From NCBI GenBank assembly GCA_018820315.1, contig JAHJOQ010000154.1, positions 1 through 40,606 of the forward strand: DNA of 40,606 nt. The letters run 5' to 3'. The position numbers and the translations under genes were made by a program. Positions 21,020-40,498 of this stretch are shown here, in pieces. How positions within the stretch are numbered: position 1 is the stretch's first letter; every line of letters starts with the position of its first letter. The notes beneath the pieces were generated by a model. The model was not told where the DNA came from. It worked only from the letters and a program-made list of their open reading frames with translations, and made no database searches. The stretch comes from Candidatus Zixiibacteriota bacterium. Lineage in GTDB: Bacteria; Zixibacteria; MSB-5A5; JAABVY01; JAHJOQ01.

Positions 21020-21054
21020 GGTTGCAATAACGTGCAACCTGGCTTGAGAGCCGG
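21020..21054 (+). promoter_or_regulatory. Tandem hairpins in the leader of the TolB-like gene
   Basis: GGTTGCA/TGCAACC (21020-21039, 7 bp, 6-base loop) and CTGGCT/AGCCGG (21039-21054, 6 bp with one G-T pair, loop TGAG) sit back to back at the predicted 5' end. No T-run follows, so these are not terminators. They may stabilise the mRNA or act as a small regulatory leader. Confidence 0.4.
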
Positions 21055-36567: not shown

Positions 36568-39186
36568 CTAAGACATAGACATAAGGCGCTTCGAAATCTC
36601 GGCGACTTCGTAGTCATCTGATCCGCTCAGCGTTGAGAAGTCGAAGCCGATTTCATTCGGAGGTAGGTTCAGCCTGTATCCTCCGCGCCGGTCATTTTCG
36701 ATGACTTCGTTTCCATTGTCGCGTTGCACTGAAAGCTCTCTCTTCAGATTGTAGAGATAACGAGCCTGATTGAATCCCGGCTCAAGATCTTCCTTGTCTA
36801 CCCAGCCCTCGGCATCCAGTTTTCTCTGCGCAGCTAACTTAAAGAGATACTTAAAGCTCTTGGCCGTAAGTAACAGTGGTGCACTACAATACATCACACG
36901 AAACCTGTCCCGCACCATCGACCCAGAGAGATGCAACTTAACTCTCCCCGGACCACCACCATACTCGCGCCCTGAGACTTCGGTTCTGTTCGAAGAGCGC
37001 TTCTCGATCGAATTTCTCATGACTTCCTCCAACCTCGAGTGTCCAATTAAACTTGCAAGAAAGTCCCTGTCACTTGAGAGGAATGATCCGACAGTCGAAA
37101 TCCCTTCCCCCGCCAATAACAGAAGGTCCCTTCTTGATAGATGATTTATCACTATTGCGTGCAGCTTGCGCACAGACACCGGCAAGCCGTGCTTCACCTC
37201 AAATGCAAGCTTCTTTAGCCGCAGCCTTCGCTTGCGATCGATGCCAAGTGCCCCCATCAGATGAAATGCTCCCTCTGCAAGCCAGGCGATAGTCTCCCCT
37301 GCATTACAGATCGTCCCCGCACAGAGACGGTAGCGCTGCTCGATTTCCATGAGATCTCGGCCCGCCATCCAGTCACAGAGGGCGAGTACCAGCCTAAGTC
37401 GCGAAATCGTTTCTCTGCCAATTCTTCCGGGATTCTCAATAATACTCACAAGTCGTTTCGTAAGTGACTGGCTTCCTGTGATCCGCGACTTAAATTCATC
37501 GAGAAGATGCTGTTCAACATCTTCCCTGAGATTATTCGAGAGGAGTACGCGCTTCCCTTCAAAACTGTCTGCCAATTCGAAGAGCCAGACTATTTCAGAG
37601 AAATCCTCATTCGATTCGAACAGCTTGCGGAGATTGACTCCCGTTGCCACAGATATCCCCTGATGAGCGAGCCTCTGCCCATAGGTAGTAGGCACAAGAA
37701 CACCTTCGCATTCGTGGATCAGTTCTTCGGTGCAGAGTTCCGCGATGATACTATCGATCTGCTGCGGCATCTCCTCCGGCATTACGCTGAACGCCCCCTG
37801 CAGCAGACTTACAACAGATGCACGATCTCTGGCGCATCTCGAAACGATAGCATCGAGAAGCAAGTCGGGAAGTTGACGCGAAAACAACTGCCCGGTCAGC
37901 GATTCCGGTTTGCCACGGATATAATTCCTCCAGAGCATCTCGCATTCGATCTCACTCTCGGAAATGATGATCGAGCGACCGTAGCTGCTGGGGAATTTCA
38001 GCCTTCCGGCGCGGCCACACATATTCTCATAATCGCTCCATGAGAGAGGTTCGATCACAGGTTTGCCCGTATAGTCTCCCTGGCGATATCTGTACGTTTC
38101 GAGAAAAACCGTCTGTGCGGGAAGATTCAAACCGAGCGCAAGCGTTGTTGTGGCAAACACCACCCTGATATCACCCGCCATATAATGCCGCTCGACGATG
38201 TGCCTCTCGCGATACGAGAGATCGGCATGATGAAATGCTATGCCCTGCCTGACAGCGTTCATCAATGGCTCGCAGAGGACTGTCATATCGCCCACCGCAA
38301 GCTCTTCGGCTGCAGATTCGCAGGACCAGAACGACGACCGCTCCGCAAGCATGGCGGCCAACTGAACGCACGAACTCTTACTCTTCAAAAACACCAAAAC
38401 CTGATCGCCATCGTTCGCAAGATGGGCGACGTTCTCGAGAAGAATCTCCACTGGAGTCGCATCTTCGAGCGGCGACATACTCTCAACCCCGCGCTCGCAC
38501 GAATTGAAACAGCGATACGAGAACGTACCGTTATAAAGAACCCCTTGTCTCAACTCGACCGGTCTGTGAGATTCAACCATCAGCCGTGCACCGATCCACT
38601 CCGCGATGTCGGCAGCATTGCTCATAACCGCAGAGAGACCGATAATCCGGCACCCGAAAGATGTACTCAGTATTTTCAGGATTATCATTTCGAGGACAGC
38701 ACCACGACTCTCATCAGCCAGCATCTGAAGCTCGTCGATAACGATCAGGTCTATCGATTTGAGAAGATCAAGATTGCGGAGCAGCATCTGGTTGAACTTC
38801 TCATAGATTATTACACTGAGATCGAACTTCCCCTTTTCGATATCCCGATCACTCTCGAAATGATCGTGCGTCGAGACAACTGTCCGGATGCCGAGCGGCT
38901 CATATTTTTCCCTGAACTCACGATAACGCTCCTCGGCCAAAGCCTTAAGTGGTACAAGGAAGACCGCCTTCTTCCGCTGCGAAAGGGCGCTTGCTGCAGC
39001 AAGCTCGCCGCAGAATGTCTTGCCTGACGATGTCGGCGCAGATATGATCAGTGATCCGCCACTAAGAAGACCATGCTCCCTGATAGCTCGTTCCTGGAGA
39101 GGAAGCAACTCATCTCCCTGCTTCTCCCCCCACGCATCGATCAGTATCTGCGGCAATCCATATTCCGCCAGTGTTGATATTTTCAC
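36568..39186 (-). CDS. Ski2/Hel308-like superfamily 2 helicase with C-terminal OmpR-type winged helix
   Basis: A protein of about 872 residues. Helicase motifs appear in order: Q-like LLPLQERAI, Walker A APTSSGKT, Ia VPLKALAEERY, II VIDELQML (DELQ instead of DExH), III LSAVMSN, IV VLVFLKSKSS, V TTTLALGLNLPAQ, VI MCGRAGRLKF. A winged-helix/ratchet region follows, and then an HhH-like LLLLAGEGISTVGSFL. The last 110 residues (nt of about 36661-36936 on the minus strand) read like the DNA-binding domain of OmpR/PhoB regulators: LTAKSFKYLFKLA, then ARYLYNLKREL, then DRRGGYRL. The start is GTG at 39186 with GGAGG 5 bases upstream; earlier in-frame starts overlap the preceding gene. A role in branched-DNA or fork repair is inferred from family and from the SOS-like promoter. 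Confidence 0.88.
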   Translation of the reverse strand: MKISTLAEYGLPQILIDAWGEKQGDELLPLQERAIREHGLLSGGSLIISAPTSSGKTFCGELAAASALSQRKKAVFLVPLKALAEERYREFREKYEPLGIRTVVSTHDHFESDRDIEKGKFDLSVIIYEKFNQMLLRNLDLLKSIDLIVIDELQMLADESRGAVLEMIILKILSTSFGCRIIGLSAVMSNAADIAEWIGARLMVESHRPVELRQGVLYNGTFSYRCFNSCERGVESMSPLEDATPVEILLENVAHLANDGDQVLVFLKSKSSCVQLAAMLAERSSFWSCESAAEELAVGDMTVLCEPLMNAVRQGIAFHHADLSYRERHIVERHYMAGDIRVVFATTTLALGLNLPAQTVFLETYRYRQGDYTGKPVIEPLSWSDYENMCGRAGRLKFPSSYGRSIIISESEIECEMLWRNYIRGKPESLTGQLFSRQLPDLLLDAIVSRCARDRASVVSLLQGAFSVMPEEMPQQIDSIIAELCTEELIHECEGVLVPTTYGQRLAHQGISVATGVNLRKLFESNEDFSEIVWLFELADSFEGKRVLLSNNLREDVEQHLLDEFKSRITGSQSLTKRLVSIIENPGRIGRETISRLRLVLALCDWMAGRDLMEIEQRYRLCAGTICNAGETIAWLAEGAFHLMGALGIDRKRRLRLKKLAFEVKHGLPVSVRKLHAIVINHLSRRDLLLLAGEGISTVGSFLSSDRDFLASLIGHSRLEEVMRNSIEKRSSNRTEVSGREYGGGPGRVKLHLSGSMVRDRFRVMYCSAPLLLTAKSFKYLFKLAAQRKLDAEGWVDKEDLEPGFNQARYLYNLKRELSVQRDNGNEVIENDRRGGYRLNLPPNEIGFDFSTLSGSDDYEVAEISKRLMSMS

Positions 39187-39203: not shown

Positions 39204-39404
39204 TCATCCACACGGGCTAAATCCACAGGCAGGACACAAATGGCAGCCAGACTGGAATTGCAGAGCCCCCCCGCATTCCGGACAGCATGACTGTATAGTT
39301 GTTCTGAGAACCGTGTGCCCCGTTCTCCTGCACGACAGATCAGCATTGGATTCAGATCTGTCCTCTTGCCCGCTTTTGACTATTTCTTCAATCCACCTTC
39401 TCAT
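39204..39404 (-). CDS. Small zinc-ribbon protein, first gene of the helicase operon
   Basis: A 66-residue protein. The C-terminal 26 residues form a four-cysteine-plus ribbon, CPECGGALQFQSGCHLCPACG followed by FSPC. Such CPECGG...GC-x2-CPxCGFSxC tails occur at the C-terminus of B12-dependent ribonucleotide reductases and as free-standing small proteins. The N-terminal part is short, charged and helical. GGAGG lies 8 bases before the ATG at 39404. Its stop is 17 bases before the helicase GTG, so the two are co-transcribed from the promoter at 39449-39477. It may be an accessory nucleic-acid-binding or metal-binding partner of the helicase; no function is known to me. Confidence 0.75.
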   Translation of the reverse strand: MRRWIEEIVKSGQEDRSESNADLSCRRTGHTVLRTTIQSCCPECGGALQFQSGCHLCPACGFSPCG

Positions 39405-39448
39405 TTCTCTTTCCTCCACCCGCTGCAACCAATTCGCGGGCGAAGATC

Positions 39449-39477
39449 AATATACTGCACATTTGTGCACCTGTCAA
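39449..39477 (-). promoter_or_regulatory. Promoter of the zinc-ribbon/helicase operon
   Basis: On the minus strand, TTGACA (39472-39477), a 17-base spacer and TATATT (39449-39454). The spacer contains the palindrome TGCACA-TT-TGTGCA, placed where a bound repressor would block RNA polymerase. Confidence 0.8.
39456..39469. promoter_or_regulatory. Probable LexA-type operator (SOS box) of the zinc-ribbon/helicase operon
   Basis: TGCACATTTGTGCA, a perfect 14-base palindrome of the form TGCAC-N4-GTGCA, lies between the -35 and -10. It matches the LexA box form (TGCNC-N4-GTGCA) that I recall for Fibrobacter. A second site of this form precedes imuA. Confidence 0.7.
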
Positions 39478-39566
39478 TTATTTTCTTGAATCGACAACCA
39501 AAAAAGTTTTTGAGTAGGCGGTGTGCCTTATAACTAATTGATGTCCAATGTATTACAACTAAACAA

Positions 39567-39594
39567 TTGACAGGCGGAAATTATTATTTATCTT
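39567..39594 (+). promoter_or_regulatory. Promoter of imuA-imuB
   Basis: TTGACA at 39567-39572 and TATCTT at 39589-39594, 16 bases apart. The palindromic operator starts 5 bases after the -10, across the predicted transcription start. Confidence 0.7.
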
Positions 39595-39599
39595 AGTAC

Positions 39600-39613
39600 T
39601 GCACAAACGTGCA
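39600..39613. promoter_or_regulatory. Probable LexA-type operator (SOS box) of imuA-imuB
   Basis: TGCACAAACGTGCA, form TGCAC-N4-GTGCA, extends to a CTGCAC/GTGCAG inverted repeat. It overlaps the predicted +1 of imuA, a gene type that is SOS-controlled in many bacteria. Confidence 0.72.
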
Positions 39614-39643
39614 GCATTAGTTGTTACAATATTGGGTGATCTG

Positions 39644-40303
39644 ATGGACATGAAAGAAGTGAAAACTATGAGATCGTCGTATGATGAGCTCAGGGAACTT
39701 GTGAAAAAGAAATGGCCCGAATCATTGAGTGCGGCATCCGAGCGAAGTGATCGGGTATTCGCGACCGGTATGGATGCTTTCGATTCCCTCTTCCCAGGAA
39801 AAGGGATCCCACTTGGGCAGCTTGTTGAAATCACCGGTAGCCTGTCATCGGGTAAGACAAGTTTTCTCTTCAGAATTCTTGCGGCGCTCACAAAGAAACA
39901 AATCGCAGCATATCTCGATTTCAGCAATTCATTCTTCCCATCTGCGGCTGAGTCGTCTGGAATCGATCTCAGCCGGATATTGATTGTCAAATCGAATGAT
40001 ATTCGCGAGGGATTGCGTGCTGCGGAGTTGATCCTACGGCATGAAATCGCAAGCTGTATCGTATTCGATCTGGTCAAGAGCCGGGGAATTCTTCCGCTTG
40101 CGATGATGCACAGGCTGCGTCAGAAGACCCTGAAAGCGGGATCGATAATCATATTCCTGACAGAGAACAATTCGGAGATCATCCCGACGAGCATGATCGC
40201 GCTCAGGATTGAAATAGAGAGGATCGGCAGCACTCGGCTTGTCGCTACGGTCACAAAGAGCAGGATTTCGAAAAAAGGTTTTAGAGTGGAGTTGGTTGCA
40301 TAG
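39644..40303 (+). CDS. imuA: ImuA-type RecA-like mutasome protein
   Basis: A 219-residue RecA-fold protein. It has a Walker A-like GSLSSGKT, preceded by the family segment FATGMDAFDSLFPGKGIPLGQLVEI, and a Walker B-like SCIVFDLV. It lacks the RecA N- and C-terminal domains. In the error-prone mutasome, ImuA works with ImuB and DnaE2 in damage-induced mutagenesis. The stop codon abuts the ATG of an imuB start, which supports the call. GGTGAT lies 3 bases before the ATG at 39644; an ATG two codons later is also possible. The gene sits behind an SOS-like operator. Confidence 0.85.
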   Translation: MDMKEVKTMRSSYDELRELVKKKWPESLSAASERSDRVFATGMDAFDSLFPGKGIPLGQLVEITGSLSSGKTSFLFRILAALTKKQIAAYLDFSNSFFPSAAESSGIDLSRILIVKSNDIREGLRAAELILRHEIASCIVFDLVKSRGILPLAMMHRLRQKTLKAGSIIIFLTENNSEIIPTSMIALRIEIERIGSTRLVATVTKSRISKKGFRVELVA

Positions 40304-40498
40304 ATGCCTAAAAGATTCGCATGCGCATATATACCGGATTTCCCGCTGGAGATAATCTTCAGGGAGAAGCCGTCGCTCTCCTCAAAGCCTGTCGCACTCA
40401 CTGTAGAGTGTTCCGGACAGGAGAGAATCATAGAACTGAGTGACAGAGCTGCAAGGGCTGGAGTACGGAGATATATTCAAAAGTTGTGGATAGAATAG
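40304..40498 (+). pseudogene. imuB: 5' fragment of imuB, truncated by a probable insertion element
   Basis: The 64-codon ORF begins like ImuB, a Y-family polymerase homologue: MPKRFACAYIPDFPLEII, then KPVALTVE, then ERIIELSDRAARAGVRR. The family normally continues with G-M-x-L-A-x-A-R for about 450 more residues. After residue 56 (about position 40471) the reading turns into unrelated sequence and stops at 40498. An inverted repeat and a new gene start follow at once. ImuB links the beta clamp, ImuA and DnaE2 in lesion bypass, so this copy should be non-functional unless it is an assembly join. Confidence 0.75.

Follow-up and report, generated by a model that had tools for sequence, protein, structure and literature searches.

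A Hel308-like helicase operon as a predicted SOS target in the uncultured phylum Zixibacteria

The locus described here raises the question of whether a DNA-repair helicase of archaeal and eukaryotic type is controlled by LexA in an uncultured bacterial phylum. Repression by LexA, its relief by DNA damage, and the 3'-5' translocation and fork-repair role of Hel308 are established knowledge. Our literature search found no paper joining Hel308 to LexA control and none joining Zixibacteria to SOS. The window (the whole stretch of DNA that was analysed, 40,606 nucleotides) is contig C154 in full, from a 3.78-Mb genome of Candidatus Zixiibacteriota in 173 contigs, and its protein-level relatives all belong to Candidatus Zixiibacteriota or candidate division Zixibacteria, save for two records labelled 'FCB group bacterium' and 'uncultured bacterium'. 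By computation we established the sequence and position of the operators, their conservation in the phylum, their sharing with lexA, their co-variation with the lexA operator, and the match of the helicase to the Hel308 fold.

Two palindromes in divergent promoters

The palindrome TGCAC-N4-GTGCA occurs twice as an exact match, at 39456-39469 (operator 1; TGCACATTTGTGCA, minus strand TGCACAAATGTGCA) and at 39600-39613 (operator 2; TGCACAAACGTGCA). Operator 1 fills the 17-bp spacer of a sigma-70-type promoter on the minus strand (39449..39477), which was read directly from the sequence as TTGACA-GG-TGCACAAATGTGCA-G-TATATT, with the -35 element at 39472-39477 and the -10 element at 39449-39454. 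This promoter leads into an operon of an ORF for a 66-aa zinc-ribbon protein (39204..39404, minus strand), with paired C-terminal cysteines (CPECG...GCHLCPACGFSPCG), and the gene of an 872-aa Hel308-like SF2 DNA helicase (36568..39186, minus strand), which starts with GTG at 39186 after GGAGG and stops at 36568. On the plus strand, the imuA promoter (39567..39594), also read directly and with an arrangement kept in the relative G006, has TTGACA at 39567-39572 and TATCTT, a weaker element, at 39589-39594, and is followed by operator 2, which thus covers the likely transcription start of imuA. A first-pass annotation of this DNA had placed two palindromes of the same form at repressor-blocking positions, and this was borne out for the minus-strand spacer and the plus-strand start site alike. 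The overlap of operator and promoter, as expected of a LexA (SOS) regulon, would allow the predicted binding to block polymerase.

Within its own genome, the exact motif was found four times in 3.78 Mb, compared with ~3.6 occurrences expected from ten fixed bases, and the remaining two matches lie inside long ORFs. Roughly 45 sites with one mismatch were inspected, and nearly all of these fell within coding ORFs. The motif in this genome alone is therefore no commoner than chance; it is position and conservation that raise the pair above chance. A further site, which precedes a WD40-like gene at 21023 (TGCAATAACGTGCA), was set aside since TTGAC was not at the right distance.

Conservation of the operator across the phylum

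Upstream of 29 helicase genes taken from named Zixibacteria records, 17 exact boxes were found in 14,852 bp, whereas the remaining 292,621 bp of these loci contained none. When the -35 context was included (TTGAC-N3-TGCAC-N4-GTGCA), 92 occurrences were detected in 75 of 133 Zixiibacteriota genomes, whereas the reversed control gave one. By downstream gene, these 92 promoter-embedded operators were distributed over the helicase (69), lexA (11), a dinB-like polymerase (5) and other genes or contig ends (7), i.e., in 69 genes for this helicase across the phylum, an operator of the operator 1 type is placed within the promoter as it is here. Downstream DNA was examined for 81 of the operators (63 helicase, seven lexA, five dinB-like polymerase, two HD-domain, one SocA-like operon and three contig-end), and one of the 63 helicases was a C-terminal remnant; the other 11 operators come from the window's own order (six helicase, four lexA and one SocA-like operon). 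A LexA operator is now defined, computationally, for an uncultured phylum, and our verdict from the sequence comparisons is that the helicase is in all likelihood a real, phylum-wide SOS target.

Link between the operator and LexA

A single LexA is encoded in the genome of the window. It scored 201 bits against the NCBIfam lexA model TIGR00498 (cut-off 111) and, by sequence, is a cleavable LexA with an Ala-Gly cleavage site and the conserved Ser and Lys. The lexA promoter, TTGACA-GC-GGCACATTAGTGCA, carries the box in its spacer with one mismatch, and a weaker second copy lies 18 bp further on, a tandem arrangement that is kept in G006 and G007; in four relatives (G001, G002, G003 and G006) the box upstream of lexA is exact. 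In candidate division Zixibacteria RBG-1, both half-sites are altered with symmetry retained, and the lexA operator and the helicase operator have the identical variant TGAACATCCGTTCA; the operator of the helicase is thereby linked to LexA. We regard this co-variation as the strongest single argument for the LexA assignment, which itself stays a prediction. Together with the lexA box, it supports the earlier suggestion of an SOS-like regulon that would include the helicase/zinc-ribbon pair.

The first-pass annotation had also proposed that the box be sought before lexA, recA and dnaE2. It was present before lexA, with one mismatch here and exactly in the four relatives, but absent from recA, which sits behind a thpR-like gene, in the own genome and five relatives (six genomes). 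For dnaE2, no promoter of its own was in view, and the gene sits downstream of imuB on contig C107. Considering that recA is without an operator in these genomes, the regulon is not a textbook SOS regulon. The form of the palindrome agrees with TGCNC-N4-GTGCA, which we take to be the LexA box of Fibrobacter. The two systems presumably share the 5+5 palindrome with a 4-bp spacer, operators at lexA and imuA, and promoter overlap, whereas the main conserved target here is the Hel308-like helicase operon and recA has no operator.

A second LexA-like gene is present in G001-G004 and G006. At four loci of family f2 (L030, L031, L033 and L040), a second, divergent LexA-like gene lies directly before a Y-family polymerase, and these genes have their own conserved promoter element (TTGTTCGGGTATTTTATGG) and no TGCAC box.

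The imuA-imuB-dnaE2 arm

The imuA gene (39644..40303, plus strand, ATG start) adjoins imuB-dnaE2 and encodes a RecA-like mutasome protein of 219 aa; its match to NCBIfam ImuA_translesion (E=4e-14) stays under the curated cut-off. In G006, imuA has a box at the same position with one mismatch (TGAACATATGTGCA). The imuB gene is represented in the window by a 5' fragment of ~55 codons (40304..40467, plus strand), which breaks off at 40467, where the left end of an insertion sequence begins and runs off the contig (40468..40606, plus strand; terminal repeat GAGATAT..TCAA.AGTTGTGGAT). A 9-bp target duplication (TGGAGTACG) is found at 40459-40467 and at C107:141-149, and contig C107 opens with the other end of the insertion sequence (within 1-149), continuing after the duplication with the remainder of imuB and with dnaE2. 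Across the empty site, the joined frame of C154 and C107 is open for ~500 codons. The insertion sequence in imuB is the cause of the contig break between C154 and C107.

The proposal that imuA-imuB would be a target of the box needs correcting on this point: an operator precedes imuA, but imuB is not intact, and the assembly has imuB split between two contigs in place of an uninterrupted imuA-imuB-dnaE2 operon. The gene order behind a LexA-type operator is that of the standard imuA-imuB-dnaE2 mutasome cassette, which differs from the present assembly in that imuB is here interrupted. Because of this split, the SOS mutasome is probably inactive in the assembled strain, with the helicase arm intact. 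Since imuA was found in only 2/8 genomes of the order, the helicase has its operator independently of a neighbouring imuA.

A Hel308-like helicase and its zinc-ribbon neighbour

Pfam searches with the helicase returned DEAD, Helicase_C and the archaeal helicase domain 4, and the best NCBIfam models were those of Hel308 (E 1e-101, residues 15-742). Scores were below the curated Hel308 cut-offs (341 vs 887 bits and 275 vs 1200 bits), and the protein is therefore named Hel308-like. In PDB profile and sequence searches Hel308 came first, colinear with 2va8 and 2p6r over query residues 18-741, and the full Hel308 domain order was found, i.e., two RecA-like domains, winged helix, ratchet and helix-hairpin-helix. 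An AlphaFold model based on 22 Zixibacterial sequences reached a pLDDT of 86, and its top nine Foldseek matches were all Hel308/Hjm crystal structures, followed by POLQ; the Hel308 matches extended over ~690 residues with a target-normalised TM of 0.85-0.90. The last ~120 residues form an extra C-terminal winged-helix domain that is absent from Hel308 and that, when modelled separately (pLDDT 84), showed a weak likeness to OmpR/PhoB-type winged helices (best E 0.015, TM at most ~0.6). The helicase gene was detected in 122 of 133 genomes and in 77 of the 79 of good quality, usually as one copy.

The colinear SF2 core, winged helix, ratchet and helix-hairpin-helix are shared with archaeal Hel308/Hjm and animal HELQ/POLQ. 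Unlike these, the Zixibacterial protein is bacterial, is preceded by a LexA-type operator, has a zinc-ribbon gene in its operon, reads DELQ at motif II (DE[VL]H in Hel308/HELQ/POLQ) and carries the extra C-terminal winged helix. According to two papers, bacteria lack Hel308 (PMC7776575; PMC12278908). This statement is too strong, as plasmid searches also find Hel308-like cores in other bacteria. The two plasmid cases inspected, from Bosea and Hymenobacter (L232, NZ_CP126308.1; L233, NZ_CP095849.1), lie in apparent defence loci and have an N-terminal caspase-like domain fused to a helicase core that is ~31-37% identical to the Zixibacterial one.

Between operator and helicase, an ORF of 60-110 aa ending in CPxCGxxxvRxGxCfxCPxCGfgxCg was present in 53 of the 63 loci examined and was not seen in the other 10; in families f12-f14 it is missing and the operator stands directly before the helicase. 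For the zinc-ribbon protein, Pfam gave no match above chance, and searches against PDB gave weak zinc-ribbon look-alikes only. The ORF may represent a small new family and a candidate helicase partner.

Competing explanations

The palindromes could be chance matches, or ordinary promoter-proximal repeats that no regulator reads, and the genome-wide count (4 vs ~3.6 expected) by itself agrees with this. Conservation throughout the phylum at promoter positions refutes such a reading: 17 exact boxes fell in 14.9 kb against none in 292.6 kb, the promoter-embedded form outnumbered its reversed control by 92 to 1 in 133 genomes, and the RBG-1 lexA and helicase share a variant that preserves the palindrome. 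We therefore give chance practically no credence. Alternatively, the operators may be real but read by a repressor other than canonical LexA, e.g., a second LexA-like protein, for which genes exist in part of the order (G001-G004 and G006). This seems very improbable, considering that the own genome has a single LexA, that at least 11 genomes have the operator at canonical lexA itself, and that the second LexA genes are without such a box, four of them sharing a different promoter element.

With regard to function, it is also conceivable that the helicase is a damage-induced anti-phage protein, akin to Hachiman or to caspase-helicases, and not a fork-repair helicase. Among the bacterial matches found outside the phylum, the closest are the caspase-domain helicases described above (~31-37% core identity), and PADLOC HamB models match the helicase partially; a Ski2-like core is common to all of these proteins. 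Defence genes, however, are patchy, whereas this helicase is near-universal in the phylum (77/79 good-quality genomes, usually once) and has the full Hel308 domain order. No HamA-like nuclease gene or caspase partner was found adjoining the helicase, the operon partner being the zinc-ribbon ORF, which has no PADLOC match, and the Hel308 models (E 1e-101, residues 15-742) outscore HamB (E 2e-37, helicase core only). A defence role thus appears unlikely, though less so than a different repressor.

Predicted regulation and role

We consider it highly probable that the palindromes are LexA operators, that DNA damage releases both operons and that the helicase works at stalled or broken forks. From what is established for LexA and Hel308 we infer LexA binding and damage induction at both boxes, along with the activity and fork substrate of the helicase; any contact between helicase and zinc ribbon is likewise a prediction. 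Zixibacterial LexA would bind operator 1 (zinc-ribbon/helicase) and operator 2 (imuA-imuB-dnaE2) and keep RNA polymerase off both promoters. Upon damage, RecA on single-stranded DNA would trigger self-cleavage of LexA, by which both operons would be released. At replication forks that have stalled or broken, the helicase would next translocate 3'-5' along single-stranded DNA, in the manner of Hel308 in archaea and HELQ/POLQ in animals. Recognition of DNA or of a partner may be aided by the zinc-ribbon protein and the C-terminal winged helix.

The helicase appears to be a main output, not reported before, of the emergency DNA-repair response of Zixibacteria; a bacterial damage response would then have a repair helicase of archaeal/eukaryotic type at its centre. 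A further reading, that SOS has been rewired such that its principal conserved output is a dedicated fork-repair machine of zinc ribbon and Hel308-like helicase with its additional winged helix, a LexA-controlled bacterial counterpart of HELQ/POLQ, with recA outside the regulon, is put forward tentatively, and we lean slightly against it. A near-universal homologue under a LexA-type operator may offer a bacterial system for studying the roles of HELQ-type helicases.

Other genes preceded by the operator

At L058 (G005:C80, 1501) and L170, a LexA-type operator lies in the promoter of operons led by a SocA/Panacea-like antitoxin protein. These operons, named by eye, are apparent SOS-controlled toxin-antitoxin pairs. 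At L180 and L190, the operator precedes an HD-domain phosphohydrolase-like gene (430-450 aa, also named by eye). At L172 (G094:C66), what lies behind it is a 189-aa ORF with just the C-terminal winged-helix portion of the helicase, apparently an internal deletion that kept the promoter and the C-terminal domain.
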